NCBI RefSeq assembly: GCF_900109885.1
Contig: NZ_FOBS01000034.1
Span: 1-32,044 of the forward strand
Length of the DNA: 32,044 bases
Direction of reading: 5' to 3'
From: Syntrophus gentianae
GTDB taxonomy: Bacteria; Desulfobacterota; Syntrophia; Syntrophales; Syntrophaceae
Under the pieces are notes generated by a model. That model ran no database searches, was not told the origin of the DNA, and saw nothing but the letters and a program-made list of their open reading frames with translations. The translations under genes were made by a program, and so were the position numbers. Of the stretch, positions 6,727 through 30,558 are shown one piece after another; position 1 is the first letter of the stretch; each line of letters opens with the position of its first letter.

Positions 6727-6727
6727 T

Positions 6728-8001: not shown

Positions 8002-8148
8002 CTCAGCGAACGTAAAACAGATAAAGATCGTCATATTAAACCTTTAATTTTATTGGAATCAACATTTCAGGGTTATAGGGATTCATCGGTTGAAGCCTTT
8101 AAACTGGATTAAACTTTCACGATTGCGGCCGTGACGGAGGGAAGAAAA

Positions 8149-8811: not shown

Positions 8812-9868
8812 GGATCAAATGACCTCCCTGGAAAGAATAACGGCCTACAACAAAGGAGAGAGCATCGACCGTTTGCCCTGCAATCCCAATATCGCCAATG
8901 GCGCCGCCCGGGTGATCGGCTGCAGGGTATCCGAATTCAAAAACAACGGGAGATTGATTGCGGAAGCCCATATCCAGGCCTATCGGAAGTTCAACTATGA
9001 CGGGGTTCGCGTCTTCACCGATCTTTACGTCCAGGCGGAGGCGATGGGGGCCAAAGTCCGTTATCCCCTGGATGACACCGCAGACCTCGACACACCGGCG
9101 ATCCAGGATGTTGCCGACATAGAAAGAATTCTGCCGGCAGATCCTTACAAGGACGGACGTCTCCCCTCTCACCTGGAAGCGGCGAAGATTCTCATCGATC
9201 AAGTCAGCAAAGAGGTCCCCTGTTCCGGCGGGGTGGTGGGGCCTTTTACCACGGCCTTTTTCCTGGTCGGTGTGGAATACATGACCCGGCTTCTGCTGAA
9301 GAACCCCGAAGCAGTGCATCGGCTCTGTGAAGTCTCCCTGGAAACAAGCCTTCGCTATGCCGATGCCTTCATGGAGATCGGGCTCACGCCGACCATTTCG
9401 GAACCGCTGTCCTCCTGCACCATTGTCAGCCCGAAACATTTTAAAGAATATTCCTTCCCTTATTTGAAACGCCTCATAGATTTTATCCATTCCCGGGGAA
9501 AGGCGGTGACGCTGCACATCTGCGGAAAAACCGACAAGATCTGGGAGGCGATGGCCGATGCCGGAGCGAATTGCCTCAGCATCGACGATGTGGCCAGTCT
9601 CTCTGACTGTAAAAAACAGGTCGGGGATCGCGTGCGCATCATGGGGAATGTCGATCCCTCCGGGATCATGTACGCCGGAACCCCGGAAGATGTGAGGAAA
9701 GCCACCCTGGAATGTGTCAGGCAGGCTTATAACAATCCCAAGGGGTATATCATCTGTTCCGGTTGCAGTCTTCCGATTGACACCCCCTTTGAAAATATCC
9801 AAGCCATGATGGATACCGCCAGAGAAATCGGCGACCCGGCAGACTCGGATCTGCTGGCAAGAGAATGA
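8804..9868 (+). CDS. UroD-family (MtaA/CmuA-like) cobalamin-dependent methyltransferase 1
   Basis: The 354-residue protein belongs to the uroporphyrinogen-decarboxylase fold methyltransferases, TIM barrels with a zinc site that activates a thiol or other methyl donor or acceptor. The candidate zinc ligands are H238 and C240 (LHICGKTD) with C318 or C321 (CSGCSLPIDTP), the H-x-C-Xn-C layout of MtaA/MtbA/CmuA. It overlaps the corrinoid-protein gene by 8 bases. With a second UroD-family enzyme next door, one is likely to transfer methyl from the growth substrate to the corrinoid and the other from the corrinoid to an acceptor such as tetrahydrofolate or a thiol. Which does which cannot be told from sequence. 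Confidence 0.9.
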   Translation: MAKDQMTSLERITAYNKGESIDRLPCNPNIANGAARVIGCRVSEFKNNGRLIAEAHIQAYRKFNYDGVRVFTDLYVQAEAMGAKVRYPLDDTADLDTPAIQDVADIERILPADPYKDGRLPSHLEAAKILIDQVSKEVPCSGGVVGPFTTAFFLVGVEYMTRLLLKNPEAVHRLCEVSLETSLRYADAFMEIGLTPTISEPLSSCTIVSPKHFKEYSFPYLKRLIDFIHSRGKAVTLHICGKTDKIWEAMADAGANCLSIDDVASLSDCKKQVGDRVRIMGNVDPSGIMYAGTPEDVRKATLECVRQAYNNPKGYIICSGCSLPIDTPFENIQAMMDTAREIGDPADSDLLARE

Positions 9869-9872
9869 TCTC

Positions 9873-10895
9873 ATGACATCCTTGAGTTTAAAAGAGCGAC
9901 TCCTGGGGGTTCTGCAGAAAAAAAAGATGGATCGGCCCCCCGTGGCCTGTTCCGGCGGCATGATGAACGCCGCCATTGTTGAGATCATGAGCCGGACCGG
10001 CCAGACCCTCCCGGAAGCGCATTTCGATGACCGGCTCATGGCGGAGCTTGCCTACGCCGTGCACATCCATACCGGGTTCGAAAATATCGGCATTCCCTTT
10101 GACGTGACGGCCGAAGCGGATGTGCTGGGAAGTGAAATCAGCTACGGTTCTCTATCCTGTGAACCCAAGGTGGTAAAGGAACATTTCTCTTCCGTTGCAG
10201 AAGTCGTCTGCAGGGATATTCGCGAACTGATGAATTCCAGCCGCATTTCTACCATTGTCCAGGCTGGGTATCGCCTGTCCCGCAGTCATCCCGATATCCC
10301 GGTTATCGGAAATCTTACCGGACCGATTACAACAGCTGCCTCCATTGTCGATCCGCTCTCCTTTCTCAAGGAACTCCGAAAAGACAAAGATCATGCCCAC
10401 CGGGTCATTGATTACATCTGTGATTTTCTCATCGAGTACGCCAGACTGTTGGTTGACAACGGCGTAGATCTGATCTGCATCGGCGATCCAACGGCATCGG
10501 GAGAAATCGTGGGACCGAAAATCTTTGAGGAATATGCCGTCAGGTATTTGAACAAGATCATCGATGGCATTCATGCCCTTAATGCACCGGTGATCCTGCA
10601 CATCTGCGGCAATATGAATTCGGTGGAGCATCTGATCCCCCGCATCCGCTGCGACGCCATCAGCACTGACGCCATGGTCAATCTGCCCCTGCTGAAGCGG
10701 ACCTATCCGCAACTCACCACCATGGGAAACATCAGCACGTATCTTCTGGAGTTCGGTCCGGCCGACAGAATTGCCGGAACGGCGGAAAAACTGGTTCGCG
10801 ACGGCGTGGATATCATTTCTCCGGCCTGTGGATTAAGCACCTCGACGACCTTGGATCATATCAGAGCTCTGACCGGAGCGGTGAAGGGGAGTTAG
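9873..10895 (+). CDS. UroD-family (MtaA/CmuA-like) cobalamin-dependent methyltransferase 2
   Basis: The 340-residue UroD-fold methyltransferase follows the first one after a 4-base gap. Zinc-site residues are H243 and C245 (LHICGNMN) and C319 (ISPACGLSTST). It differs throughout from its neighbour, including a single C-terminal cysteine instead of CxxC, so the pair is not a recent duplication. The segment ACGLSTSTTLDHIRAL is typical of the family C-terminus. Together with the corrinoid protein it should complete a substrate to corrinoid to acceptor methyl relay in the cytoplasm. Confidence 0.9.
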   Translation: MTSLSLKERLLGVLQKKKMDRPPVACSGGMMNAAIVEIMSRTGQTLPEAHFDDRLMAELAYAVHIHTGFENIGIPFDVTAEADVLGSEISYGSLSCEPKVVKEHFSSVAEVVCRDIRELMNSSRISTIVQAGYRLSRSHPDIPVIGNLTGPITTAASIVDPLSFLKELRKDKDHAHRVIDYICDFLIEYARLLVDNGVDLICIGDPTASGEIVGPKIFEEYAVRYLNKIIDGIHALNAPVILHICGNMNSVEHLIPRIRCDAISTDAMVNLPLLKRTYPQLTTMGNISTYLLEFGPADRIAGTAEKLVRDGVDIISPACGLSTSTTLDHIRALTGAVKGS

Positions 10896-10899
10896 AACG

Positions 10900-12579
10900 T
10901 TGGCCAAAGTGACTTTCCAGCCGGCCAATCGCTCCGTGGAAGTGCAGAAAGGCGCCAGTATCCTGGAAGCGGCAAAGATGGCGGGAGTCGTCGTTGAATC
11001 CCCCTGCAACGGGTTTGGCACCTGCGGGAAATGCAAAGTCAGGCTTGAGCCGGAATTCCTGAATGGCATCTCGTACGAGAATGACCGGCATCTTTCGGAA
11101 GCGGAAAAAAGCCGGGGGGTTGTCCTGTCCTGTCTGGCGCAGGTCAAGGATGACCTCTCGGTATGCGTCGAGGAATCGGACCGTAAGGAAAGTTCTGCCC
11201 TGGCGATTTTAGGCTACGCCAAGGCCATGACCTTGGAGATGGACGGCTTTGTAAAGAAGCAATTTAGCGAGCCTGAGAACCTGACCAGAATTTACGGCGG
11301 GGACGAAGTCCTGGGCGTCGAACCGGGAAATACGGAGGACAGGAATTATGGAATGGTTGTGGATATCGGGACGACGACGTTAGTGGCTTCCCTTGTCGAT
11401 ATCCGTGAAGGGAAAGAACTGGGATCCGTTTTTTCGCTGAATCCCCAGGTTCGTCATGCCCAGGACGTGTTGTCCCGGATTGCGATGGCCTCGGAGGAAC
11501 ACGGTCTGGCTCTGCTCCATTCCGAGCTTACCGCTGAAATCAACCGGATGATCGACCAGGCCGCCCGGTCTCTGGAAATCCAAAGGAAGAACCTCTATGA
11601 GGTTGTCTACAGCGGCAATACCTGCATGCTCCATCTGGCTGCCCGAATCTCTCCCTATTCGCTGGGAAAATATCCTTACACCCCCTGTATGACCGGTGGA
11701 ACTTCTCTGAAGGCGACGGAATTTGGCCTGGATATTTCGGAGTTCGGCCTCCTGTATCTGCCCCCCATTATCTCCGCCTATGTGGGGGCGGACATCACTT
11801 CCGGAATCCTCGCCTCCGGGCTCCATAAGCAACAGGGCGTTGCGCTCTTCGTGGATATCGGGACCAATGGAGAGATGGTGCTCGCTTCTGAAGGCAGGCT
11901 TTCTGCGACCTCAACGGCGGCGGGACCTGCTTTTGAGGGAATGAACATTACCTGTGGCATGAGGGCGGATGAAGGCGCCGTGGAGCGCTTCGCTGTCGGG
12001 GAGGATGGTTCCGTTACCATAAAAACGATCGGCCGCACAAAGGCGGTCGGACTGTGCGGAAGCGGCCTGGTGGACATTGTGGGGGAACTGGTTGCCCATG
12101 GTGTGATCCGTAAAAATGGCCGGTTTGTCGATCCTCAGGCCGATTTCCTGCCGCCGGCTTTAAGGGAAAGGCTTGTCAGGTACAACGGGAAACCCGGTTT
12201 CAGGGTGTCTGACGGCGTATATCTCCTCCAGAAAGATGTCCGGCAGGTGCAGCTCGCCAAAGGCGCTGTCCGGGCGGGCGTTGAAATCCTGCTGCAGCAT
12301 CGGGGGATCAGGGCGGCGGATGTGGACCGGGTCTTGATCGCCGGGGCCTTCGGCTATCACCTGAGAACTTATAGTTTAATCAACATCGGGCTCTTGCCCC
12401 GGGAATTTGAGGGCCGGATCGAATTCATCGGCAATACGTCCAAATCAGGCGGTCAGGCCTTTCTGCTGAACAGAGCCTATCGACGGGAAATGACAGAGGT
12501 GGCGAAAGCCGTTGATGTGTTGGAATTGGCTAATTTTGAGGCGTTCGAAAAGGTCTTTGTTCACTGTCTCAGCTTTTAG
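10900..12579 (+). CDS. RACo-like reductive activator of corrinoid proteins (ferredoxin plus ASKHA ATPase)
   Basis: The 559-residue protein starts with a [2Fe-2S] ferredoxin domain whose cysteines are C36, C42, C45 and C78 (CNGFGTCGKC and LSCLAQ). After a linker it continues with an ASKHA-type ATPase: VVDIGTTTLVASLVD, the FVDIGTNGEMVL phosphate loop, and VLIAGAFGYHL near the C-terminus. RACo/RamA-type proteins use ATP and a low-potential electron to return oxidised Co(II) corrinoid to Co(I). The start codon is TTG at 10900, with GGGGAG upstream, 4 bases after the preceding stop. Some relatives are about 60 residues longer. It completes the corrinoid methyltransferase operon. Confidence 0.93.
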   Translation: MAKVTFQPANRSVEVQKGASILEAAKMAGVVVESPCNGFGTCGKCKVRLEPEFLNGISYENDRHLSEAEKSRGVVLSCLAQVKDDLSVCVEESDRKESSALAILGYAKAMTLEMDGFVKKQFSEPENLTRIYGGDEVLGVEPGNTEDRNYGMVVDIGTTTLVASLVDIREGKELGSVFSLNPQVRHAQDVLSRIAMASEEHGLALLHSELTAEINRMIDQAARSLEIQRKNLYEVVYSGNTCMLHLAARISPYSLGKYPYTPCMTGGTSLKATEFGLDISEFGLLYLPPIISAYVGADITSGILASGLHKQQGVALFVDIGTNGEMVLASEGRLSATSTAAGPAFEGMNITCGMRADEGAVERFAVGEDGSVTIKTIGRTKAVGLCGSGLVDIVGELVAHGVIRKNGRFVDPQADFLPPALRERLVRYNGKPGFRVSDGVYLLQKDVRQVQLAKGAVRAGVEILLQHRGIRAADVDRVLIAGAFGYHLRTYSLINIGLLPREFEGRIEFIGNTSKSGGQAFLLNRAYRREMTEVAKAVDVLELANFEAFEKVFVHCLSF

Positions 12580-15657: not shown

Positions 15658-16200
15658 ATCAGCAAGAAATTATTTTTGTTTGTCCTTTTATTATTCATAT
15701 CCTGCGGGTCAAGGGACTTGAGCCAGATCGAGGCTGAGAAAATTCTCGAGGAACAGATTAAACCAAGACCGATTTATGTCCATTTAAAAAGCTCGGATCC
15801 AAGAAGTCCGGAAACGGACCGGGAAATACGGCGTCTGAGATCCCGGCATGCAAGTTCCCCCGGTTCGTGTCAGGGTGCGTGTAAATTTTATCACCCTTCG
15901 GAGGAAGGGGAAAAATATTTCAGAGAGATCTATTGTTACGGCAGCCGGTGTGGCGGCTATTTCACGATCGGCTATAAAAGGATTAAAGAAGTTACGGAGG
16001 TTCTCAATGACAGTAGCAATGATTCCGCGGTTGTAAAATATCTTTTGATTTTTGAACCGCTTGAACCTTTTTACTCAGAGATTTGCGCCGGCGGAAAATG
16101 TGACCGGTACACCCGCGTGTTGGAAAAACCGATTAAAGCCCCATTCAAGAGATATGATAAGGGCTGGAGGATGAAAGAACTTCCGAGTTGCTGCGGATAA
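15658..16200 (+). CDS. Cys-rich lipoprotein at the head of the NosL/ABC operon
   Basis: The product is unrecognised. It has a lipoprotein-type N-terminus (ISKKLFLFVLLLFISCGS, with the lipobox Cys after FIS) and eight further cysteines, arranged as CQGAC, CYGSRC, CAGGKC and a final CC. Such spaced cysteines suggest metal binding or disulfides in the periplasm. The annotated start is unusual. AGGAGG (15645-15650) and the basic end of the signal peptide both point to codon 15658, which is ATC rather than ATG; the nearest standard start (TTG, 15676) would remove the lysines and part of the hydrophobic core. A changed or non-standard start codon is therefore likely. It precedes two NosL genes on the same strand, 21 bases from the first. 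Confidence 0.65.
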   Translation: MSKKLFLFVLLLFISCGSRDLSQIEAEKILEEQIKPRPIYVHLKSSDPRSPETDREIRRLRSRHASSPGSCQGACKFYHPSEEGEKYFREIYCYGSRCGGYFTIGYKRIKEVTEVLNDSSNDSAVVKYLLIFEPLEPFYSEICAGGKCDRYTRVLEKPIKAPFKRYDKGWRMKELPSCCG

Positions 16201-16221
16201 AATAAAAAAGGAGAAAATATC

Positions 16222-16767
16222 ATGAACAAAAAGACCATCGCCATCTTAGTCATCTGTCTTGCTGCCTTTCTTTTAATCCCCCTGGCGGCCTCGGCACAAA
16301 ACGAGGGAAAAGATCAAGCCGCGTGTAAATACTGCGGCATGGACCTCAACGTCTACGCCCACAGCAGAATGCTCGTCACTTACGATGATGGCTCATCTGT
16401 GGGCACTTGCAGCCTGCACTGCCTCTCTGTCGAGCTTGCTCTCCATATCGACAAGACCCCCAAAAGCGTGGAAGTGGGCGACTACAAAACAAAGAAACTG
16501 ATCGACGCCGAGAAGGCGACCTGGGTCATCGGCGGCGGCAAACCCGGCGTCATGACCAAAAGGTCCAAGTGGGCCTTCGAAAACAAGGCGGATGCCGATG
16601 CCTTCATTAAAGAAAACGGCGGAATACCGGCAACTTTTGATGAGGCAATCAAGGCCTCCTATGAGGATATGTATTCCGACACAAAGATGATCCGTGAAAA
16701 ACGCAGGATGAAAAGAATGATGAAAAAGTCCACGGCGCCGGTGACTCCGATGGAACAGCACAAATAA
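16222..16767 (+). CDS. NosL-family copper-binding accessory protein 1
   Basis: The 181-residue protein has a signal peptide (IAILVICLAAFLLIPLAASA) and the NosL metal motif CKYCGMD (C35, C38, M40). CSLHC (C62, H65, C66) follows, in place of the usual single conserved segment. NosL proteins bind Cu(I) and help assemble the copper sites of nitrous oxide reductase. The C-terminus is basic and Met-rich (KRRMKRMMKKS), an addition compared with simple NosL proteins. Another NosL-family protein follows 15 bases later. No nosZ is in the window, so the client enzyme is unknown. Confidence 0.88.
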   Translation: MNKKTIAILVICLAAFLLIPLAASAQNEGKDQAACKYCGMDLNVYAHSRMLVTYDDGSSVGTCSLHCLSVELALHIDKTPKSVEVGDYKTKKLIDAEKATWVIGGGKPGVMTKRSKWAFENKADADAFIKENGGIPATFDEAIKASYEDMYSDTKMIREKRRMKRMMKKSTAPVTPMEQHK

Positions 16768-16782
16768 CGGGAGCCCTCCTTC

Positions 16783-17268
16783 ATGAAAAAATCGTGTCTG
16801 TCGGTTTGTTGTGTTTACCTGATCCTGCTGTCGGTTTTCTCTGCCGCCTGGGCCGGACCTCCGGCCCCGTCAAAGCCTGAAGCCAGGGAAAAGTGCCCCG
16901 TCTGCGGCATGTTCGTGGCGAAGTATCCCGATTTTCTTGCCCAGACCGTCTTCAAGGACGGGAAAGTCTTTTTCTTTGATGGCGTCAAGGACATGATGAA
17001 GTTCATTTTCCGCCCCGACAGGTACAGTCCGGGCCGGAAGGTTTCAGACATGATCGCCGTCTATGTGACGGATTACTACAGCATGGCGCCGATCGACGGC
17101 CGAAGGGCTTTCTATGTGATCGGAAGCGACGTCTATGGGCCCATGGGGAGAGAACTGATTCCCTTTCAGATGAAAAATGAAGCCGGGGAGTTTTTGAGAG
17201 ACCACAAAGGCAAGCGCATTCTCACCTTTGGAGAAATTTCGCCGGAGCTGATCAGGAAAATCGACTGA
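16783..17268 (+). CDS. NosL-family copper-binding accessory protein 2
   Basis: The 161-residue protein has an N-terminal signal sequence (VYLILLSVFSAAWA) and the NosL core CPVCGMFVAKYPDFLAQ (C38, C41, M43), followed by FFFDGVKDMMKFIF and FYVIGSDVYGPMGREL. These are classic NosL/TlpA-associated segments, in which the CxxCGM motif carries Cu(I). It lies between NosL 1 and a short membrane protein, with which it overlaps by one base (TGATG). A periplasmic location and a metal relay to the ABC permease complex are inferred. Confidence 0.9.
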   Translation: MKKSCLSVCCVYLILLSVFSAAWAGPPAPSKPEAREKCPVCGMFVAKYPDFLAQTVFKDGKVFFFDGVKDMMKFIFRPDRYSPGRKVSDMIAVYVTDYYSMAPIDGRRAFYVIGSDVYGPMGRELIPFQMKNEAGEFLRDHKGKRILTFGEISPELIRKID

Positions 17269-17597
17269 TGCACATCCGCAAGGCAAACGCCTTTCTTCTC
17301 TTTTCGCTTTTCAATTTGGCGGTCCTTGCCCTCCTTTTTACCCATGGGGAGATTGAACGGCAGCGGCAGGGACCGGTTCTTCTTGCCAAAAAAAAGCTTG
17401 TGGAGACCATCGGGCTGACCGACATCTGCCTGTTCACCGATGCCCGATATACGCGAAACCCTGCGGTGGCCGACAGGAGTTCAGCCTTCCAGGACAATCC
17501 CCTTGCCCTGGATTATTTCCCCTCCGGTTCGATTCTGCCGATTCCTCCCCATTTAAGAGACTCTGAACATGATCGAAAAGCAGAAAAACATCCTTGA
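17268..17597 (+). CDS. Small single-pass membrane protein of the NosL/ABC operon
   Basis: The 109-residue protein is not assigned to a named family. One N-terminal hydrophobic helix (AFLLFSLFNLAVLALLF) is followed by a soluble segment with the pattern DICLFTDARYTRNPA. That segment recalls short proteins found next to NosL and FtsX-type genes, where they probably anchor or cap the complex. It starts by stop-start overlap with NosL 2, and its 3' end overlaps the permease gene by 29 bases, so it is translated as part of the operon. The coding status is supported by this tight packing. Confidence 0.7.
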   Translation: MHIRKANAFLLFSLFNLAVLALLFTHGEIERQRQGPVLLAKKKLVETIGLTDICLFTDARYTRNPAVADRSSAFQDNPLALDYFPSGSILPIPPHLRDSEHDRKAEKHP

Positions 17598-18696
17598 GTT
17601 TGCCTTGTCCTCCCTCCTGAGGCGTTGGAAGAAAAATGTGGCCCTTCTGTTCGTGTACACCTTTGTCGTCTTCATCATCGCATCGGTTATCTTCTTTATT
17701 GAAGCCCTCAAGCGGGAGGCCTTCCTGGTCCTCGAAGGAGCCCCGGATGTCGTTGTGCAGCGCCTCGTTGCCGGAAGGCATGCCCTCGTTTCCTGCAGCC
17801 ACATGGAGAAGCTCCGATCGATAACGGGCGTATCTGACGTGAAGGGTCGTCTATGGGCTTACTACTACGAGCCGTCGGTGAGGGCTAACTATACCCTTGT
17901 GGTCACTCCCGAGGCATCCCGTCAGCCCGGCAGAGTCGCCATCGGCGCCGGCGTCTCCCGGACGCTTCATGCGGACAAAGGGGATCTCATCGAGTTTCGG
18001 GGCCATGACGGCTCCTATGTGAGCTTTGAGGTTGCACGGATCTTCCCCTCGTCATCGGAACTTGTCTCTGCCGATCTTGTCGAACTCTCCGATGAGGATT
18101 TCCGCTCTCTCTTCGGCCTGCCGGATGGTTCGTACACGGATATTGTGCTTCAGGTGAGAAACCCGAAAGAAACCATCACGGCGGCCCACAAAATCCGGAA
18201 ACTCCTGCCCGACACGAGACCGATTCTCCGCGAAGACATGCTCAGGACCTACGAGGCCCTCTTCGACTGGAGAGGGGGAATTGTCCTGGCGATCTTCGCC
18301 GGCGCCGGACTGGCCTTTCTTATTTTCGCCTGGGACAAGGCAACAAGCCTATCCCTCGATGAGCGGAGAGAGATCGGTATTTTAAAGGCCGTCGGCTGGG
18401 AAACATCGGAAGTCCTTGCCATGAAGTCATGGGAGGGCATCGCCGTTTCCCTTACAGCCTTCCTGATCGGCGCTTCCCTGGCCTACATCCATGTCTTTTT
18501 CGCATCGGGAACCCTTTTTGAACCGGTTTTGAAGGGTTGGGCCGTTCTCTATCCCCGTTTTTGTCCCGTGCCCTTTATAGACCCGTACCAGATCGCCACG
18601 CTGTTCTTCCTGACGGTGGCGCCTTACACGGTGGCTACCGTCATTCCCTCCTGGGGGGCGGCAACGATCGATCCCGACACCGTCATGCGTCAATAG
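17569..18696 (+). CDS. FtsX/MacB-like ABC transporter permease
   Basis: The 375-residue protein has the MacB/LolC/FtsX layout: an N-terminal transmembrane helix (VALLFVYTFVVFIIASVIFF), a large extracytoplasmic domain of about 200 residues, and then three more helices in the FtsX domain (ATSLSLDERREIGILKAVGWET is its typical cytoplasmic coupling segment). Such permeases use ATP to drive periplasmic events, such as lipoprotein release, rather than classic import. It overlaps the small membrane protein upstream and lies 14 bases before the ATPase gene. With two NosL proteins upstream, the cargo may be a metal or a metallated protein. Confidence 0.88.
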   Translation: MIEKQKNILEFALSSLLRRWKKNVALLFVYTFVVFIIASVIFFIEALKREAFLVLEGAPDVVVQRLVAGRHALVSCSHMEKLRSITGVSDVKGRLWAYYYEPSVRANYTLVVTPEASRQPGRVAIGAGVSRTLHADKGDLIEFRGHDGSYVSFEVARIFPSSSELVSADLVELSDEDFRSLFGLPDGSYTDIVLQVRNPKETITAAHKIRKLLPDTRPILREDMLRTYEALFDWRGGIVLAIFAGAGLAFLIFAWDKATSLSLDERREIGILKAVGWETSEVLAMKSWEGIAVSLTAFLIGASLAYIHVFFASGTLFEPVLKGWAVLYPRFCPVPFIDPYQIATLFFLTVAPYTVATVIPSWGAATIDPDTVMRQ

Positions 18697-18710
18697 AGGG
18701 CAGATATGCC

Positions 18711-19403
18711 ATGAGCCTGATTACCCTGCAAGACATCACCAAAATCTTCAACCGGGGAAGACCTGACGAATTCACCGCCCTGAGCAAGGTGGACCTTGAG
18801 ATCGAATCCTGCAGGCTTGCCGTTTTCAGGGGTCCGAGCGGTTCGGGAAAGACGACCCTGCTGTCCGTTGTCGGCTGTATGACAAAGCCTACCGCGGGAC
18901 GTGTCTTTGTCCAGGGACGGGAGGTAACGAGCCTGTCGGAACGTTTTCTCACGGACATCCGTCGCCATACCTTCGGGTTCATCTTTCAGCAATTTCATCT
19001 TCTCCGGGGCATCAGTGCCCTGGAAAATGTGATCCTGCCGGCCTATCCCTCCGGGGAAAAGCTGTCGGTTCTCAAGAAAAGGGGGAAGCGACTGCTGGAT
19101 CTCCTGGAGCTTTCGCCAAGGGCAACCGCCTCCGTCGAGTGGCTCTCCGGTGGGGAAGCCCAGCGCGTGGCCATCGCCCGGGCGCTCATCAATGATCCCT
19201 TCATTGTCATAGCCGACGAGCCCACGGCCCACCTGGACACGAAGCTTTCCCGCGATTTCATGGCCATCATGGAACGGCTCAAGTCGGAGGGCAAGACAAT
19301 CCTTGTAACGAGCCACGATCCCCTCATTTACGAATCCGCTACGGTGGATCGTGTTCTGGACATGCGCGACGGAAGGATTCTTTCGGAAAGGCAGGGGACA
19401 TGA
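18711..19403 (+). CDS. LolD/MacB-type ABC transporter ATP-binding protein
   Basis: The 230-residue ABC ATPase has Walker A GPSGSGKTT, the Q-loop FIFQQFHLL characteristic of the LolD/MacB class, signature LSGGEAQRVAIARAL, Walker B FIVIADEPTAHLD and switch VTSHDP. The start at 18711 is chosen because it gives the normal N-terminus (MSLITLQDITKIF); the frame is open further upstream only as overlap with the permease gene. It is the partner of the FtsX-type permease. Its last codons overlap the next gene by 4 bases (ATGA). Confidence 0.92.
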   Translation: MSLITLQDITKIFNRGRPDEFTALSKVDLEIESCRLAVFRGPSGSGKTTLLSVVGCMTKPTAGRVFVQGREVTSLSERFLTDIRRHTFGFIFQQFHLLRGISALENVILPAYPSGEKLSVLKKRGKRLLDLLELSPRATASVEWLSGGEAQRVAIARALINDPFIVIADEPTAHLDTKLSRDFMAIMERLKSEGKTILVTSHDPLIYESATVDRVLDMRDGRILSERQGT

Positions 19404-20398
19404 TCCTGAGCCCGCCCGTCATCGCCCTTTCGCTGGGAGCGGCTGCCACTTCCCTCCTGGCAATCCAGGCTTCCGTCCTCGGCGTCCGGATCATCAGGAA
19501 ATGGGACCTCGCCAGTGGAAGCGAGCAGCAGCTTCAGCTGGAAAAGCGCACCTACCTGATCTCGACCCTGATGGCCTGCGCTTTTGCGTTTCAGATCGCT
19601 TCTCTCTTCCTCTTCATCTTCACCGCGGAAGACCTTCATCAGCTTTTTGTGGGCGCCATGTGTGCCGCCGGAACCCTCAATGTCAACAAGTTCGGATATC
19701 CGACGATTCTGCTGAAAACAGGCAACGCCCTGTTGGGCGGAGTCTGGCTGATTGTCAATTATGTCGACAACAGGGCTTATGATTATCCCCTCATCCGCAA
19801 AAAATACCTCTTTCTTCTGATGCTCACCCCGCTGCTCCTTGCAGAGGCGGTACTCCAAGGCGCCTATTTTGCCGGCTTGGAACCCGACGTGATCACTTCT
19901 TGCTGTGGAAGTCTCTTTGGATCGGGAGCCAGTGGCGCTTCCGCGTGGCTCGCCGACCTCTCTCCGAAGGTGCTGGGGACGGCTTTGACTGCAATCCTGG
20001 CAATCACCTTCAGTTCAGGGATCCTTTTTCATCGAGGACGGACCTGGGCCGGGGCCATTTTCTCCATTGCTGCTCTGTTCACCTTTCTCATCTCTCTGGC
20101 GGCCCTGATATCCTTCATCTCACCTTATATTTACGAGCTTCCGACCCATTCCTGCCCCTTCTGCATTCTGCAACGGGAATACGCCTATGTGGGCTACTTT
20201 TTCTACGTCTTTCTGCTGGGAGGGGCGGTGCCCGGAATGGCCGTGGGTGCACTCCTTCCTTTTCGCCGCATTGAAAGTCTCTGCCAAGTGCTGCCGCCGC
20301 TCCTCAGGCGGCTTGCCCTGTTTTCGCTGGTTGCCTACGCCTTCTTTGCGCTGATCAGTGCCTACGTCATCAGTTTTTCCAATCTTTCCATGAGTTAA
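19400..20398 (+). CDS. Polytopic membrane protein with a DsbB-like Cys pair
   Basis: The 332-residue protein has about eight or nine hydrophobic segments and no family name I can give. Near residue 250 it carries HSCPFCILQREYAY (C252, C255), which closely resembles the redox-active CxxC-x-x-QR loop of DsbB. DsbB passes disulfide electrons from DsbA to quinone, and its QR pair contacts the quinone. Further cysteines occur at C88 and C168/C169 (ITSCCGSLFG) in other loops. It closes the NosL/ABC operon by a 4-base overlap with the ATPase gene. An electron or thiol relay keeping metal-binding cysteines of the NosL proteins reduced is a plausible role, but this is inference. Confidence 0.75.
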   Translation: MILSPPVIALSLGAAATSLLAIQASVLGVRIIRKWDLASGSEQQLQLEKRTYLISTLMACAFAFQIASLFLFIFTAEDLHQLFVGAMCAAGTLNVNKFGYPTILLKTGNALLGGVWLIVNYVDNRAYDYPLIRKKYLFLLMLTPLLLAEAVLQGAYFAGLEPDVITSCCGSLFGSGASGASAWLADLSPKVLGTALTAILAITFSSGILFHRGRTWAGAIFSIAALFTFLISLAALISFISPYIYELPTHSCPFCILQREYAYVGYFFYVFLLGGAVPGMAVGALLPFRRIESLCQVLPPLLRRLALFSLVAYAFFALISAYVISFSNLSMS

Positions 20399-20595: not shown

Positions 20596-22233
20596 TCACA
20601 TCCGCAGATCATCAAGGAATTCCGACGCCGGAGCAACGCTCGTCACCAGGAGATGATCCCGGGCGCGGGTGCAGGCGACATAGAGCAGGTGTCGCTCCGT
20701 GTTGTAGACCTCTTCCAGATCCGTATCATCGGCCACTGCCTCAATCCGTTCCTGGAGGGGAACGATTTCGTCATCACAGGCCATCACGGCAACGGCCCTG
20801 AATTCAAGACCTTTTGCCAGGTGCATCGTGCTGATCGAGACATAGCCACCCGTCGTTTCGACTTTATCATCAAGAATCTTGAATGGCAGCCCGGCCGTCT
20901 CGACAGCACGGCGGCCCCGATCCAATTCCGCAGCCGATCGGACAAAAACGCCGATTTCATGAGGCGCCATCCCCTCACCGATCCGCTCGATCATCCATCC
21001 TCCGACCCCTTTGATTTCATCCTCCGGGCTGTCGAACATCATGATGGCTGGTTTCGGCCCGTTGAAGACGGAAACGATGCCGCGCCGCTCTTCCGTGTTC
21101 CCGTCCACGTCGGATAACTCGGGTCCAAGGAGGCGGTCAGCCTGCATGCGGATCTGATGTGACGTCCGGTAGTTGATCCGAAGGGTCCGGGACCGCCCCC
21201 GGATATCGACACCCAGTGCCTTCCAGGAGAAGGGTTGTTGGAAGATTCGCTGGCCCAGGTCGCCGGCGAAGAAAAGGCTGTTCAGCCGTCCAGTTCCGAG
21301 GGCGGCGATGAACCGCAAGGGTTGGATGCCGATATCCTGAGCCTCATCGACCACAACAAAGTCGAAGGGCGGTTTCCGACCATCTCCCAAATGGGCGGCG
21401 ACATGGTTGAACATGCCGGCCATCGTGACAAGATTTCCGCTCTTCAGGGACGATTGCACCCTTTCGAAAATCGACCAGAGGACGGCGCGCTGCTTCTCCG
21501 GCAGACGCGTTTTCCGGCCCAGACGCCGGGCGTCGCGGTAAGCCTCCCAGGAATCCAGCTGCCAGGCATCAACCACGTCTTCCCACTCCATTATCAGAAA
21601 ATGGCGTGTAAATTTGTGCCCCCCGACTGCGCCGCCAGCTTCTTCGAGAAGCTGGCGGATATTCTCCCGTGAGGCAATATGTGGGAGTCCGATGTTCAAC
21701 TCATTGAGCCGCAAGCCGATTTCGTTCAGGGCATGGATCTCCAGACGCTCGCCGAGACGCGGTTCATGGTGGATCAGACGCCTCAGCTTCGTTTTCAGGG
21801 CATGAGCCAGGGTTTCGGAGAAGGTGGTGAGCAAGACCCGGGCATCGGGATTGGCTCTGGCCAGGAAGACCGCCCTGTGAAGGGCGACGATCGTCTTCCC
21901 CGTGCCCGCCGAACCGGAAACCCGCGCGGGACCGCTGAAATCCCGTTCCACCAGTTGACGCTGCGCAGGATGGAGGAAGACCGTCCACTTTTCCCAGGGA
22001 TATTCCAGGGCGCGCTCCAGTTCTTCGGCATTCTGCATCACGCGAAAACGCCGATGGGCATCGGGATGGGCGAAGGGATCGGTTCCGGCGGCAAGAGGCG
22101 GTGCGGCGTGCGGAGTTGTGCCCGTCGCCAGGCAGAGAAGCGCTTCGGCTGCCTCCCCCGGTAGATGATCGGCCAGTTCCAGCAGGACATCCTCGTCGGC
22201 CCGGCGCACATCGTCCAACCATTCGGCCGGCAC
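20596..22233 (-). pseudogene. SF1 (UvrD-like) helicase, C-terminal part of a gene split by an IS21 insertion
   Basis: This part holds the motor: Walker A GSAGTGKT, motif II VVDEAQDIG, motif III FAGDLGQRI, NYRTSHQIR, and the C-terminal STMHLAKGLEFRAV and VACTRARDHL of UvrD/Rep-type helicases. The N-terminal 148 codons lie at 24452-24895 on the same strand beyond an IS21 element. Joining 24895-24447 with 22228-20596 gives one frame of 693 residues in which GYGVP continues directly as AEWLDDV. The remaining piece may still be expressed from a GTG (22233), or from a TTG (22239) inside the element end, giving a helicase without its N-terminal RelE-like domain. Convergent with the NosL operon, with 197 bases between them and no strong terminator. 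Confidence 0.88.
22229..22233. repeat. Target-site duplication, left copy (GGCAC)
   Basis: The 5-bp sequence GGCAC directly abuts the TGTCAA end of the IS21 element and is repeated at 24447-24451 after the other end. Removing the element and one copy restores the helicase frame. Confidence 0.9.
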
Positions 22234-22286
22234 TGTCAATGGGAAAGTAAAAGTGTACCAGTTCTGGGAAAATAAAAATGTACCAC
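22234..22286 (+). repeat. IS21 left terminal repeat
   Basis: It holds two subrepeats, GTGTACCA (22253-22260) and ATGTACCAC (22278-22286). The outermost bases read TTGACA on the minus strand, an outward-facing -35 hexamer. Confidence 0.8.
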
Positions 22287-22307
22287 CCCTTTATGCTGGC
22301 ACACGGT

Positions 22308-23087
22308 TCATGATGACAGGTCGTTCACGGAATCACCTCCTTGCTGGTTGTAAATCTGTTTGCTGAAGGCATGTTCTTTTAAGCGGTAGCTATGCCCCTT
22401 GATGTTGATCACCTTGCTGTGATGGAGAAGCCTGTCCAGGATGGCAGAGGCAATCACGGGATCTCCAAAGAGTTCCTGCCAATCGATGAAGCTCTTGTTT
22501 GAGGTGATGATGGTTGAGCTCTTCTCATAGCGGTAAGAGATGGACTGGAAAAAGAGGTAGGCTTCCTTACTGTCTACGGGAAGATAACCGGCTTCATCAA
22601 CGATCACGAGGCTGGAGTTCAGATAGGCCTTGCCCTTGCTCTGGCTTTCCTTGAGTTTGGCAATCAGGGTGTGCATGGTGGTAAAGTAGACCTTGAATCC
22701 GTGACTGCAGGCCTTGATCGCCAGAGAGATGGCAAGATGCGTCTTACCAACTCCTGGAGGTCCCAGAAAGATGACGTTCTCATGCTTGGAGATAAAAGAG
22801 AGATCGAAGAGCTCCATGACGGCCTTCTTGTCCAGATGAGGATGGAAAGAGAAGTCGTATTCCTCGATGGTTTTGGCAAAGGGAAGGCCTGCGATCTTCA
22901 GGGAGGTTTCGATCCGCCTCTTTTCCTTGGCTGCCACTTCCTCTTCCAGGAGGTGATCCAGGAAAGAGAGATACGAAACCCGATCTTCCTCGGAATGAGT
23001 TACGATGGCGTCCAGGACCTCTGCAGCCTTGGTCAGTTTAAGACGCTTGAGGTTGTCCTGGAGGCGTTCATGGGTCAATTGTTCCAT
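22308..23087 (-). CDS. istB: IS21-family ATPase/helper protein IstB
   Basis: The 259-residue AAA+ ATPase has Walker A GPPGVGKTH, Walker B VIVDEAGYLP and the family N-terminal region (LTHERLQDNLKRLKL). IstB oligomerises on target DNA and helps IstA choose and integrate into the site. GGAGG precedes the ATG. The start overlaps the 3' end of istA by 13 bases, as in other IS21 elements. Confidence 0.96.
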   Translation of the reverse strand: MEQLTHERLQDNLKRLKLTKAAEVLDAIVTHSEEDRVSYLSFLDHLLEEEVAAKEKRRIETSLKIAGLPFAKTIEEYDFSFHPHLDKKAVMELFDLSFISKHENVIFLGPPGVGKTHLAISLAIKACSHGFKVYFTTMHTLIAKLKESQSKGKAYLNSSLVIVDEAGYLPVDSKEAYLFFQSISYRYEKSSTIITSNKSFIDWQELFGDPVIASAILDRLLHHSKVINIKGHSYRLKEHAFSKQIYNQQGGDSVNDLSS

Positions 23088-24343
23088 AAGGCACCTCCGG
23101 AGGCATACCTTTCATATTCTTTAAGGGGCCTGTAAGCCACATTGATGAAGAGGCTGCCATTGATCAGGCCGCGGGTGGCCTGAGCGCGGCCCTTGCCATA
23201 CTTTCTTTTTAACTGCTCTTTGTCATGTCTGAGTTCTTCGCCGAGACGCGCATCGGCAATCAGATTGTGCTTTGTTCCAGGTTCTTCATAGGTAATCAGA
23301 AGATCCTGATCATCGTAAATGCGGATCAGTCCATTCTTGATCTTCAGCAGCACCTTCTTGCCGACCATGCGGTGGGGGACCTGGTAACGATTTCCGTTGT
23401 AGGAGATCTGGCAATCCCGGTAGACTTTGCGGAAAACTTTGATCGACGTGTCGTAGTCCGATGGAGGAAGTTGTCCCAATTTGGAGATCTCTTCTTCCCA
23501 TCGGGCCTGGACGCATTGATGATGGGTTCCATGGATTCTCCGGTTTGCCGTTTCATTGAGCCATGCCAGGACATCCTCGTTGGCTTTTTCGATCGTGGTG
23601 AAGGTGTAGCCCCGCCAGAACCGTTCCCGGATGAAGTTTATCGGCCTTTCCACCTTCCCCTTGATCCAGGGGCTGTACGGTGGCGCCGCCATGGGCTGGA
23701 AACCGTAGTGATGGGAGAAGTGGAGGAACTCATGGTTGAAGACCACTTTCCCCTCCTGTCTGCCGATGACGACGTTTTTCATGTTGTCATAGAGGACTTC
23801 TGCTGGAGTTCCCTGGAGATATTTGAATGCGTGGATGTGACAGTCCATGAAGATGTCCATCGTACATTGCCGGACAAACTCGACATACATGGCTCTGGAG
23901 AAACCGAGAACGATAACGAAGGCGTAAAAAGTGGTGGTGTTTCCGTCGGCATCGACGACTTGGAAATCACCCCAGTCACACTGGGCCTGGAGTCCCGGTT
24001 CCGTTTCGAACCGGAGATAGGCCAGGCGAGTCTTCTGCTCTTTGAGTTTACTGACGTACTGCTTGACCGTATCGTAACCGCCGGGATAATCGATCTTTTT
24101 CAGGCGATCGTAAATCCAGGTTGCCAGGTAATCATCCTCGTCCAGAAAATCGTGGATCGTCTGGTAGTATGGTGCCAAAATGGATTCCCTCCGTTTATTT
24201 TTTTTGTATTTGGGGAAGGAATTGTTTTCAAGGTGTCTTTTGACGGTCTTTCTGTGGACACCGAGAGTCTCGGCTATTTTCCGAATACTGTAACCTCGAC
24301 GGTGCAAATGATAAATGTCCATAAATACCTCGCTGGTAATCAT
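23075..24343 (-). CDS. istA: IS21-family transposase IstA
   Basis: The 422-residue transposase has an N-terminal helix-turn-helix (RRGYSIRKIAETLGVHRKTVKRHL). A DDE integrase core follows: an Asp in QCDWGDFQV, an Asp in LYDNMKNVV, and a Glu in the KGKVERPINF block. A C-terminal beta domain closes the protein. It cuts the element ends and joins them to target DNA. GAGGAG lies upstream of the ATG at 24343. The frame is complete. Confidence 0.96.
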   Translation of the reverse strand: MITSEVFMDIYHLHRRGYSIRKIAETLGVHRKTVKRHLENNSFPKYKKNKRRESILAPYYQTIHDFLDEDDYLATWIYDRLKKIDYPGGYDTVKQYVSKLKEQKTRLAYLRFETEPGLQAQCDWGDFQVVDADGNTTTFYAFVIVLGFSRAMYVEFVRQCTMDIFMDCHIHAFKYLQGTPAEVLYDNMKNVVIGRQEGKVVFNHEFLHFSHHYGFQPMAAPPYSPWIKGKVERPINFIRERFWRGYTFTTIEKANEDVLAWLNETANRRIHGTHHQCVQARWEEEISKLGQLPPSDYDTSIKVFRKVYRDCQISYNGNRYQVPHRMVGKKVLLKIKNGLIRIYDDQDLLITYEEPGTKHNLIADARLGEELRHDKEQLKRKYGKGRAQATRGLINGSLFINVAYRPLKEYERYASGGALWNN

Positions 24344-24393
24344 CGGTAACTCCTCCTCTCTTAAAGGAGATGTTACCAGGATTAGAGTTTCCA

Positions 24394-24446
24394 GGTGGTA
24401 TACTTTTCATTCCCATTTCTGGTACACTTTATCGTTCCCGTCGACA
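24394..24446 (-). repeat. IS21 right terminal repeat
   Basis: This is the inverted counterpart of 22234-22286, with subrepeats TGGTACAC (24420-24427) and TGGTATAC (24396-24403). The element ends with TCGACA at 24446. Confidence 0.8.
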
Positions 24447-24451
24447 GGCAC
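24447..24451. repeat. Target-site duplication, right copy (GGCAC)
   Basis: Matches 22229-22233 exactly and abuts the right end of the IS21 element. Confidence 0.9.
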
Positions 24452-24895
24452 ACCGTAACCCAGGAGAACCTCGCTTGCAACACCTGCAAAGAGAGGCGCT
24501 TTGGGATGAACCTGTTCTTCCCCAATCGTATACTGGGGAAGCGCAATCTCTTTTATGGTCTCCCGGATCTCGACCAGCTGCGCCGCGCCGGTCTGCGGGT
24601 GCGTCTCCAGCTTCCGCCGTTCCGCCCAGTGATAGGCGTTGTCATGATGGCCGACATAGCACAGGAGCATGCTTTCCGCCGTCCGGTGAACGATGAGCCG
24701 GATGTCGCTGCCGACACGAACGGACCAGAAATTCGGATCCCGGGCCTTGTCCAGCTTATGGAACCGCATGCCCGGACTGGTGGAATCCAACTGGAGGTCA
24801 AAGGCCGTCGTCTTGACGAGCTTTTGCTCTTCGTTGTTCAACTTTGCGAGGCTGTCGGTAAAGGTGTCGGCGATACGGAAGTTCACTGGTTTCAT
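24447..24895 (-). pseudogene. N-terminal part of the split SF1 helicase, RelE-like domain
   Basis: The first 149 codons of the helicase interrupted by IS21. They begin MKPVNFRIADTFTDSL (ATG at 24895, AAAGG upstream), 19 bases after the stop of the PHP-ATPase gene. Residues 30-95 contain FHKLDKARDPNFWSVRVG, DIRLIVHRT and CYVGHHDNAYHWAERR. This order of strands, ending in a His-rich turn, matches RelE/ParE/YafQ-type folds. Such N-terminal domains occur in known UvrD-like helicases, where they presumably contact RNA or DNA rather than act as a free toxin. As it stands the frame runs into the IS21 end and stops at 24407, giving a 162-residue product with a foreign tail. Confidence 0.85.
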
Positions 24896-24914
24896 CTTGC
24901 CTTTAATGATCGCA

Positions 24915-27734
24915 TTAGAAATGGTACTTTTCTCTTCTGCGGCGGAATGCTTCTTCTGTACCCTCCATGATGTCAAGGACCGCTTTAGTTACGACACCCT
25001 TATCCAGGCCTCCCTGCGCCAGTGCAACACCATGACCATCTCGTGCCTCAAAAGCGTACACTAATTCACTATCCCCATTCACGGGCAAGTTCGCGTTGTG
25101 TGTGGCCATGATTAGCTGGCGTTTGGATTTCACCTTGCGGAGCATCGGAATTAGCTCTCGGAAGACAAAGTTGGAATCCAACTCATCCTCTGGCTGATCA
25201 ATGACAAGTGGGCCACCTTCCTGAGCCAATAGGAGCGCAAGGGCCGCGGTATTCCGTTGCCCATCCGACAGTAATCCTTCGGCAATACTTCCGGCGATAG
25301 TTCCGTCAGCCCTGAAGAGCTTCATATCCACTGTGTCTCTTACCCGAGAACAGCGGAGCTTTTCCCACGCCTCGCGGTTCGCCTGAATATGCTGATAGAG
25401 TTCCTTCGATGTTTCGCCAAAATCGCTTCCGACCGAACCGTCCTCGATAGACAGTCGCTCATGCAGCAGTTGCCATGGGGAATCTAATACATCGTTCATC
25501 ATAAACAGATCATACAACTTCTGGCCGTGGTTTTCCCAATTTCTTCCAAGGCGAGTTCGCCCATCAGTTGGAGCGAATCCTTGCCATAGCTCGCGGAAGT
25601 TGTTAAAATCACATTGATACTTGGTGGTCACTTCTATAAACCGCTGACGCCCTTCTTGGAGCACTGCCAGTTTGTTTGCACGCCTCGCGGCTTTAGCGCG
25701 CTTTTGGTATTGTTTTTTCCAGATAATTTGCAGGCATCGAATAAGCCTTTCTGGATCTCCTGCCAAATCTTTTAGCTTCTGAATTTCAGCAGCAGTCTCA
25801 TCGATCTCCTTCTGCTTTTTCGAACGTGATTCACTGATCTCCTGTAGATGCCCTACATCATCTGTGGTCAAACCCTTCAATGCGCAGGCTTCGCTGAATT
25901 TCGTATCTGCCTGATCCAGCTCATTTTTTATGTTAACCCATGCTGGGTCATGAGTCTTAAGCCCTTCGATTGCGTTGTTGAATCGATCGACCGCATCGCG
26001 GATGGTCCTTGCCAGGTCATCCTTTGCTGCCTTCACATTGCTGTCGAACTGCTGAAACCAATCTCCGTGCGGGGAATCTACCAATGCAAAAGCGACATGC
26101 GCGGCGGCAATAGATTCAGCCAAGGATGCCACATCAGAGAACCGCTTGCCGGGTGTACCGAACATCTCTTCAAGGTAACTATTCTCCGACTTGAGTAGTT
26201 GATGCCTGCGAGCATCTTCCTGGATCTCACTGCGGGCTTTCCATTGGCGATCAAGATCCTGATGCTCTTGCTGGAGTCGCTTCAGTTCCTTATCCATGCT
26301 CTCGGCTTTGCGTAGGTTGTTAAAGGCATCTTGAATCTGGAGCTTGATCTTACGTTCCTGATCGCCTAGGTCGTCCAACTCAGATTGGGTGAATCCATCC
26401 ACAAGTTCAAGCAAGCGTTGGGCTTGGCGAACACTGCCGTCATCGGTTTTGGATTCAGTCAGCCTGTTGAGTTGCTGTTGGCTGTAAAACCGAATCGGAA
26501 GATTGCTGAAGAATGTATCCGGATCTGGAAGTTTCCTGTTGATGACGGACGGACTACCATTACGCCACACGATACGATCCTCGACTCCATCAGCGCTTCT
26601 CCAGCAAACCTCAAGTTCAGCACCGGCAGCATTCAAAGTGTCCCGAACACGTTTGATGCGATCTTTCGTGCCTGGATCAAGGTCCTTGGCCTTGTCTTTA
26701 CCCAATATAATGCGGAGGTATTCGAGAAGCATTGATTTGCCGCTACCTCTGCCACCTATGACGCAGTTCATATTGGGAGAGAAATGAATATTCTGATTCG
26801 CAAGGAACGCCACGCCCTTGATGCTGATAGACTGAATTTGTGCCTGCTTGATGCGCACGGCAGGGTGGATATCGGTCGAGACATTTTCGGGCAAAACGAT
26901 ACGTGAATCGTGATCTAAAAAGGCTTGGCGGAGCGATTCGATTGATGGTTCTGACATCTTTATCCAGGAGAATCGATACCCAATGCTATTCGGTGTTGGC
27001 TTGCCATCTCCGTCAGTAGCGATAAGCTTTTTATTGTCCGAAGACATAAGTGTCGCGATGGGTCGAATCCGTTTCCAATCCTGAAGGCAATCATTACCAG
27101 AGCGGAACAGTGTTTGGAAAGCCTTGCTAAGCTGGCTAATTGGCTTCGGAACCTCGACAGCCAAAAGATCAGGGTTGGTGAATTGATCCTTCTGGAGCCA
27201 CTCAGAAATTGAGCTATTGTCGAATATTCCGTCGTTACTCATCGCGTGCGGTAACATGACAATGCCGCTATGTTTGTCCTGAACGAGTTTCAAGATGTCC
27301 TTAAGGTTTTTGTCTGACTTTGCCAACTGGCCACTCATATTAACCCGTGGATAGCCAACGCCACATTCGGTGAGAATGGATTCAAGCAGCGCCATGTCGG
27401 AACTGGGCTCAAACAGACACAACACATGCACCCCACGACCGATGCCTGCGGCCTCAAACTCGAATCCAGGAAATAGCGTAATCTTATGGCTGAATCCTCG
27501 TTCGTCCTCATCGAAAGCTACCCGGAGATGGGATAGAAAGTCCTTACTGAGAAAGTTGTGGTCAGTAATTCCAACAACATCCAAGCCTGATTGGTAGCAG
27601 GCATCGGCAAAATCCTTGGCGGCTTTGGCTTCTTGGCCGCCAACAATACCCTCACCGGCCCAGTGTTGAGAATCTGCTGGTGTATGCATATGCAGATCAC
27701 ATTTCAGCCAGCGCATACCCTTATAGCAAGTCAT
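24915..27734 (-). CDS. PHP-domain plus SMC-like ATPase (TrlF-like), probable defence effector
   Basis: The protein (939 residues from ATG 27734) begins with a PHP phosphoesterase domain: CDLHMHTPAD near residue 13 and GITDHNF near residue 55, whose histidines and aspartates bind metals. From about residue 325 it is an SMC/RecN-like ATPase: Walker A GGRGSGKS, then a long charged coiled-coil stretch, signature LLSDGQRNTAALALLLAQ, Walker B LVIDQPEDELDS and the THNANLPV switch. This arrangement matches TrlF-family AAA-like proteins found in defence islands, in which a metal phosphoesterase or nuclease is controlled by the ATPase. The start at 27734 is preferred over GTG 27740 because GGAGA lies 6 bases upstream. 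The gene is clearly AT-richer than the genes on either side, suggesting a separate origin. Confidence 0.88.
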   Translation of the reverse strand: MTCYKGMRWLKCDLHMHTPADSQHWAGEGIVGGQEAKAAKDFADACYQSGLDVVGITDHNFLSKDFLSHLRVAFDEDERGFSHKITLFPGFEFEAAGIGRGVHVLCLFEPSSDMALLESILTECGVGYPRVNMSGQLAKSDKNLKDILKLVQDKHSGIVMLPHAMSNDGIFDNSSISEWLQKDQFTNPDLLAVEVPKPISQLSKAFQTLFRSGNDCLQDWKRIRPIATLMSSDNKKLIATDGDGKPTPNSIGYRFSWIKMSEPSIESLRQAFLDHDSRIVLPENVSTDIHPAVRIKQAQIQSISIKGVAFLANQNIHFSPNMNCVIGGRGSGKSMLLEYLRIILGKDKAKDLDPGTKDRIKRVRDTLNAAGAELEVCWRSADGVEDRIVWRNGSPSVINRKLPDPDTFFSNLPIRFYSQQQLNRLTESKTDDGSVRQAQRLLELVDGFTQSELDDLGDQERKIKLQIQDAFNNLRKAESMDKELKRLQQEHQDLDRQWKARSEIQEDARRHQLLKSENSYLEEMFGTPGKRFSDVASLAESIAAAHVAFALVDSPHGDWFQQFDSNVKAAKDDLARTIRDAVDRFNNAIEGLKTHDPAWVNIKNELDQADTKFSEACALKGLTTDDVGHLQEISESRSKKQKEIDETAAEIQKLKDLAGDPERLIRCLQIIWKKQYQKRAKAARRANKLAVLQEGRQRFIEVTTKYQCDFNNFRELWQGFAPTDGRTRLGRNWENHGQKLYDLFMMNDVLDSPWQLLHERLSIEDGSVGSDFGETSKELYQHIQANREAWEKLRCSRVRDTVDMKLFRADGTIAGSIAEGLLSDGQRNTAALALLLAQEGGPLVIDQPEDELDSNFVFRELIPMLRKVKSKRQLIMATHNANLPVNGDSELVYAFEARDGHGVALAQGGLDKGVVTKAVLDIMEGTEEAFRRRREKYHF

Positions 27735-27773
27735 TGCCACTCTCCATTATCTGATAGGCTCAAAAATTGTCTC

Positions 27774-30554: not shown

Positions 30555-30558
30555 GTGT

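Follow-up and report, generated by a model that had tools for sequence, protein, structure and literature searches.

A conserved NosL-FtsX-LolD gene module of Syntrophus gentianae as a candidate ATP-driven machine for periplasmic copper

We analyzed a stretch of 32,044 nucleotides (the window) from Syntrophus gentianae (contig NZ_FOBS01000034.1), which carries an operon for two NosL-type proteins, an ATP-binding cassette (ABC) permease and ATPase, and further membrane proteins. The list of open reading frames and their translations place seven tightly packed frames on the plus strand at 15658-20398, with overlaps between neighboring frames at three places (17268, 17569-17597 and 19400-19403). 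A sequence-only reading of this DNA had described seven packed, overlapping frames that include two NosL proteins, a small anchored protein, an FtsX-type permease and a LolD-type ATPase, and the frames together with the Pfam and NCBIfam scores confirm that description. The seven genes, with the names used here, are as follows.

15658 or 15676 to 16200, plus strand: G1, a Cys-rich lipoprotein-like protein, first in the row; no Pfam or NCBIfam family at an expectation value (E) of 1.
16222-16767, plus strand: NosLa, a NosL-type protein with CXXCGM and CSLHC motifs; PF05573, 53.3 bits.
16783-17268, plus strand: NosLb, a NosL-type protein with a clade-II-like CXXCXM motif; PF05573, 113.5 bits, and a profile match to 7og7.
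17268-17597, plus strand: G4, a small membrane-anchored protein; no match in Pfam or NCBIfam at E 1.
17569-18696, plus strand: an ABC permease of the FtsX/LolC type (type VII); Pfam, NCBIfam and PDB profile matches.
18711-19403, plus strand: a LolD/MacB-like ABC ATPase; PF00005, 91 bits.
19400-20398, plus strand: G7, a membrane protein of eight helices whose GAMC, SCC and HxCPFC loops lie on the same side; no match in Pfam or NCBIfam at E 1.

The conserved unit consists of six of these genes. Within a class sample of 155 genomes, where G7 relatives were called at E 1e-5, such a relative occurs in 11, and the order NosLa-NosLb-G4-FtsX-LolD-G7 is found in nine class genomes (the window and eight others), in two of which the contig ends within G7. 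Additionally, a scan of named genomes, whose patterns covered the GAMC and CPFC motifs of G7, yielded 266 relatives, and the best 80 of these form our set of related loci, some of which lie on short contigs. According to their titles, these loci belong to Deltaproteobacteria/Desulfobacterota, Nitrospirae, Methylococcales, Geothrix/Holophagaceae, one Lentisphaerae metagenome-assembled genome and others. G7 is present in all 80, LolD in 78, FtsX in 75, G4 in 74, NosLb in 68 and NosLa in 50; homologues of G1 were found in none of the 80 and were not seen in the 11 class regions. Based on these counts, the unit comprises NosLa-NosLb-G4-FtsX-LolD-G7, of which NosLa is the most dispensable. The earlier proposal of a seven-gene unit thus stands for the last six genes, whereas G1 is ruled out as a member. 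Across the phylum, 56 of 394 sampled genomes contain a G7 relative at E 1e-20. As for G1 itself, inspection by eye suggests that it starts at the ATC at 15658, shortly 3' of a ribosome-site-like GGAGG, and not at the TTG at 15676, because with the latter the signal peptide would lose its basic N-terminus. Promoter- and terminator-like sites of the operon did not exceed the level of shuffled sequence.

Both NosL proteins score well above the PF05573 cut-off of 24 bits, and the NosLb profile matches the solved NosL chains 7og7 (E 2.8e-12) and 7osf. The NosL copper motif is reported as CXM (CXXCXM in clade II) plus a second conserved Met (PMC6530538), and both sequences agree with the CXXCXM and second-Met motif as reported there. 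In NosLb, C38, C41, M43 and M121 are kept in 69 of 69 aligned rows; in NosLa, C35, C38, M40, C63 and C67 are kept in 48 of 51 rows and M111 in 49 of 51. By eye, neither protein has a lipobox Cys, and their signal peptides end in ASA-Q and AWA-G. NosL is described as a chaperone of NosZ (PMC7558416, PMC6769254), and it also appears in genome surveys (PMC10974252, PMC11213822). As a separate observation, three loci encode a NosL domain fused to a Phenol_MetA_deg-like outer-membrane barrel (L106:11547-13019, just below the model cut-off; L049:2458-3876; L140:3000-4352), and other Methylococcales loci resemble the fusions in L049 and L106.

The permease and the ATPase probably form a pair of the type VII class. 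The permease profile matches LolC in the PDB (E 1.2e-6), its FtsX C-terminal domain reaches 24.8 bits with PF02687 (cut-off 25.5), and it scores 28.2 bits with NCBIfam LolC/E, missing the cut-off of 362.45. The ATPase scores 186.7 bits with LolD, its best NCBIfam model (cut-off 307.75), 185.1 with MacB and 178.5 with FtsE, and remains below the cut-off in all 25 families shown. G4 contains a conserved stretch, ARYTR...FQD.P...FP.GS; its profile found no relative among PDB sequences (best E 0.12), and its single-sequence structure model is poor (mean predicted local distance difference test, pLDDT, 57.5), with one N-terminal helix. The resemblance of the pair to LolC/LolE/LolD, together with a lipoprotein-like G1, would fit a Lol-like release of lipoproteins or some other mechanical function, with NosL an incidental neighbor. 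We regard this as very improbable, given that the scores fall far below the LolD and LolCE cut-offs and that the lipoprotein gene is not conserved while NosLb is kept in most loci.

To characterize the surroundings of the module, genes within 5 kb were counted in the 80 loci, using seeds from the same neighborhoods and one best match per family and locus, so that near and far numbers are descriptive. CusA occurs within 5 kb in 22 loci (three matches are short or less similar) and, by best match per locus, nowhere beyond that distance; CusB occurs in 17. TlpA-like genes were found in 16 loci, SCO1 in 7, a Cys-rich family in 6, an HMA-DsbD2-cupredoxin fusion in 5, a Cu-ATPase in 4 and a TonB receptor in 3. 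A multicopper oxidase (MCO) lies within 5 kb in 6 loci and further away in 8 more. In L027, the nearest relative of the window, MCO, CusB, CusA and the module share one contig. The best model for the receptors is the TonB copper receptor, whose cut-off they miss (264 and 250 versus 472 bits). The copper site of OprC is reported to consist of CxxxM and HxM (PMC8610252), and both motifs are kept in the receptors adjoining L072, L087, L089, L024 and L025. The conserved Cu(I) ligands of NosL and the copper genes next to the module in its relatives make us confident that the substrate of the module is copper. The Cys-rich family includes L053:5344-5916, L087:2781-3362 and L072:2424-3158, with no Pfam match for the members in L053 and L087; the Cys-rich proteins in L048 and L053 have a GDPPDPPP stretch near their end.

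G7 is a putative Cu(I)-binding protein. A structure model built from 40 sequences (mean pLDDT 91.2) has eight long helices, and the matched structures align with residues 1-164 and 185-326, as expected of two bundles. Lys and Arg residues number 2, 4, 2 and 2 around loops 1-2, 3-4, 5-6 and 7-8 and 1, 1 and 1 around the Cys loops, and these counts weakly place the Cys loops on the outer side. Foldseek with the model returned no PDB match at E 0.001 (best E 0.16), a missing match that does not show a new fold; VIA-align returned mostly generic helix bundles, and the G7 profile had no match among PDB sequences. M87, C88, C168, C169 and C252 are invariant in 95 of 95 rows, where the scan patterns GAMC and CPFC bias the conservation of C88 and C252 while C168 and C169 lie outside them; 14 rows from other searches agree for all five residues. 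H250 is kept in 92 of 95 rows and C255 in 87.

These cysteines raise the alternative that G7 is a DsbB/VKOR-like oxidoreductase which sets the redox state of cysteines in NosL or its clients, with TlpA-like partners. The TlpA-like neighbors in 16 of the 80 loci would suit such a role, and so would LQRE after the CPFC motif, a combination reminiscent of DsbB. G7 also shares with DsbB/VKOR a CxxC on an outward loop and a helix-bundle architecture; it differs from them in having eight helices, no family match and a CxxC whose second Cys varies. C255 is replaced by D or I in 8 of 95 rows while M87, C88, C168, C169 and C252 stay constant, a pattern that favors a Cu(I) site over a CxxC reaction. We therefore consider a thiol-redox function improbable. 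The sequence-only reading had noted a DsbB-like loop and proposed an ATP-driven metal or thiol delivery system: the CPFC loop is indeed present, although without an invariant second Cys, and the proposal holds for a metal (copper) with an ABC motor, conserved together, and not for the thiol half.

NosL and copper raise the question of the client. NosZ (PF18764) was found neither in the genome of S. gentianae nor in 49 operon genomes taken from the first 50 of the 80 loci, in a run whose own controls were silent as well; the model does match in G098, L146 and L147. Among the 155 class genomes, NosZ occurs in one, which lacks G7. NosZ is thus ruled out as the client of the copy in the window, and the earlier suggestion that the client is not nitrous oxide reductase holds for the branch of the window; a nosZ gene elsewhere in the genome, which would have spoken against that suggestion, was looked for and not found.

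The earlier reading had also proposed profiling cuproenzymes, and MCO co-occurs with G7 in genomes of the class and of the phylum. In tests that treat genomes as independent and ignore kinship, MCO (PF07731), present in 17 of the 155 class genomes, occurs in 8 of the 11 genomes with G7 and in 9 of the 144 without it (p 5e-7). In the phylum sample, where 124 of 394 genomes have it, the numbers are 41 of 56 carriers and 83 of 338 others (p 4e-12). For close G7 relatives (at least 360 bits, a split chosen after the scores were seen), MCO is found in 34 of 38 genomes versus the same 83 of 338 (p 3e-15); these carriers span 20 families, and in 18 of those a majority has MCO. MCO is also present in 43 of the 49 operon genomes, and the three congeners of S. 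gentianae lack both G7 and MCO. COX2 is not enriched with close G7 (8 of 38 versus 71 of 338) and was not found in the genome of S. gentianae, and cytochrome oxidase was rejected on these grounds as the client in the window branch. Cu-ATPase was discarded as an informative marker, as it was matched in 14 of 14 genomes and above cut-off in 12. The single MCO gene of S. gentianae lies on another contig (L124:6976-9507) and encodes an 844-aa oxidase-CopB fusion (PF05275, 239 bits) with four sites, HWH, HAH, HLH and HCH. Next to it lies the gene for a 136-aa Cys-rich protein that matches no Pfam family and has homologues near the module in L045, L077 and L072.

Taken together, we favor, by a modest degree of confidence, the view that the module is an ATP-driven periplasmic Cu(I) machine that delivers copper to clients, chiefly MCO in the branch of the window. 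In this model, Cu(I) would be bound by G7 at a Met-Cys / Cys-Cys / Cys(-His) site that faces outward from the inner membrane. Together with the tethered G4, FtsX and LolD would act as a mechanotransmitting ABC machine of type VII and spend ATP on moving Cu(I) between G7 and soluble NosL. The NosL chaperones would then pass copper to periplasmic clients, chiefly MCO in the window branch and the Cus pump where it is present. Copper binding by G7, the coupling to ATP, the direction of flow and the hand-over to clients are all putative steps, and delivery to clients is suggested by co-occurrence and adjacency.

Several observations weigh against this proposal. No copper gene beyond the operon was recognized in the window, and 37 of the 80 loci, some on short contigs, lack CusA, CusB, MCO, SCO, receptor, Cu-ATPase, HMA fusion and Cys-rich family within 5 kb. 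No NosL is found in 5 of 67 loci with more than 4 kb upstream (L029, L034, L050, L051 and L084). MCO is missing from 3 of the 11 class carriers (genomes 74, 96 and 100% complete), from 15 of the 56 phylum carriers and from 6 of the 49 operon genomes. In the 18 divergent G7 carriers, MCO shows no link (7 of 18, p 0.17), whereas COX2 does (12 of 18); over all G7 carriers, COX2 is weakly linked (20 of 56 versus 71 of 338, p 0.025). PF07731 scores weakly on the NosZ CuA domain (20.8 bits), and some weak MCO matches may be other proteins. The pattern bias at C88 and C252, the disregard of kinship and the post hoc 360-bit split count on the same side, as does the search for a Cus pump: no CusA was found in the genome of S. 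gentianae at E 1e-150, with four of nine candidates scored.

The main rival of client delivery is pure detoxification, in which the module strips Cu(I) from the membrane face and NosL hands it to Cus or another exit, no enzyme is loaded, and the oxidase is a co-occurring resistance gene. The close proximity of CusA in 22 of 80 loci agrees with this, as does the fusion of the S. gentianae MCO to CopB, a copper-resistance family. A CusA subclade (at least 68% identity, defined post hoc) also fits, being found in eight class genomes, seven of which carry G7 (p 7e-9). On the other hand, the CusA family at large is weakly linked to G7 (8 of 11 carriers versus 45 of 144 others, p 0.008), and S. gentianae has the module without a CusA at the threshold given above. 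In addition, OprC-type receptors at five loci, and SCO1/PCuAC or nosZ clusters at divergent relatives, point to copper supply as well. We therefore judge detoxification as the sole function unlikely, though worth serious consideration.

The divergent relatives bear further on delivery to clients. In L134 the order is SCO1, a Cys-rich gene, NosLb, G4, FtsX, LolD, G7, PCuAC and SCO1; in L139 SCO1 directly follows the module; and in L024 and L025 a lone divergent G7 is followed by an OprC-type receptor. In L140, L141 and L143, NosL genes, G4, FtsX, LolD and G7 adjoin a TlpA-like gene, an ABC-2 permease and a further NosL, so that a NosDFY machine and the module stand side by side. The stretches L146 and L147 next to this set contain NosD and NosZ by Pfam, and L148 has a NosZ-like match, the only basis for NosZ in that stretch, made with a query that is the longest frame of L107 and likely antisense. 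The nos clusters in L140, L141, L143 and L146-L148 combine NosDFY-type genes with the FtsX-LolD-G7 module and at least three NosL genes.

In the G7 tree, nine divergent copies form one clade (support 99), of which two are SCO-linked, three NosZ-linked and four without such a neighbor seen. The three NosZ-linked copies are a clade of their own within it (99), apart from most main-branch rows, and the other SCO-linked loci are scattered across the main branch. The window and L027 are sisters (99) and group with L039, L079 and L144, all of them loci with Cus and MCO (84). The position of divergent relatives inside nosZ-nosDFY clusters might recall a NosZ maturation system left over after the loss of nosZ. 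This can hardly be the case, considering the absence of NosZ from the genome of S. gentianae and the 49 operon genomes and the confinement of the NosZ-linked copies to a single subclade. Because divergent relatives adjoin SCO1/PCuAC or lie in nosZ-nosDFY clusters, the module appears to be a copper machine of general use that serves several clients; for the wider family, NosZ probably belongs to them. Tentatively, and with less assurance than for delivery in the window branch, we suggest that NosL, the FtsX/LolD pair, a tether and an eight-helix putative Cu(I) protein may constitute a new class of ATP-driven periplasmic copper-insertion machine, whose branches serve MCO, CuA oxidases with SCO1/PCuAC, and NosZ in nos clusters.

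The module resembles the NosDFY-NosL system in its NosL chaperones, its dedicated ABC machine and its relation to periplasmic copper. In contrast to that system, its permease is of the FtsX/LolC type and not an ABC-2 type NosY, NosD, searched for among the operon proteins, has no match there, no NosZ accompanies it in the genome, its two NosL proteins lack a lipobox by eye, and G4 and G7 are added. It shares an ATPase and permease, alike by profile, with the type VII systems LolCDE, MacAB and FtsEX, but has one permease gene, NosL and G7 as partners, and copper genes as neighbors. The Cus system for Cu(I)/Ag(I) efflux (CusA/CusB) is a frequent neighbor of its relatives; unlike Cus, the module has no resistance-nodulation-division part. 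PcoA/CopA-CopB resistance co-occurs with it across genomes and is represented in S. gentianae by the oxidase-CopB fusion, albeit on a different contig from the module. Classical pco/cop systems are not known to have an ABC machine. We saw no description of the module in the open-access literature that we searched (NosL with ABC, FtsX, LolD and copper systems), and we claim nothing wider.

Elsewhere in the window, a defense-island-like stretch follows the module at 20596-31545 (minus strand), with a UvrD-like helicase, a TrlF-family ATPase (563 bits, cut-off 350) and a type III methyltransferase (PADLOC, 1417 bits); within it, an IS21-like pair was recognized by eye at 22308-24343. A corrinoid methyltransferase set at 8131-12579 (plus strand) comprises a corrinoid protein (by eye), two MtaA/CmuA-like methyltransferases and an AcsV-like corrinoid activase under its cut-off, and a CbiM-type cobalt transporter gene lies at 6040-6753 (minus strand).

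ATP-driven delivery of periplasmic copper is not known in comparable detail for any enzyme other than NosZ. If true, another ABC machine built on NosL, with G7 relatives in 56 of 394 phylum genomes and loci in Methylococcaceae, Nitrospirota and others, would show that such delivery is a general mode. The proposal gives a testable function to G4 and G7, two families that Pfam and NCBIfam do not model, and gene removal is feasible because some of the carriers are isolates with names. It would also provide a rationale for the NosL genes of genomes that have no nitrous oxide reductase.

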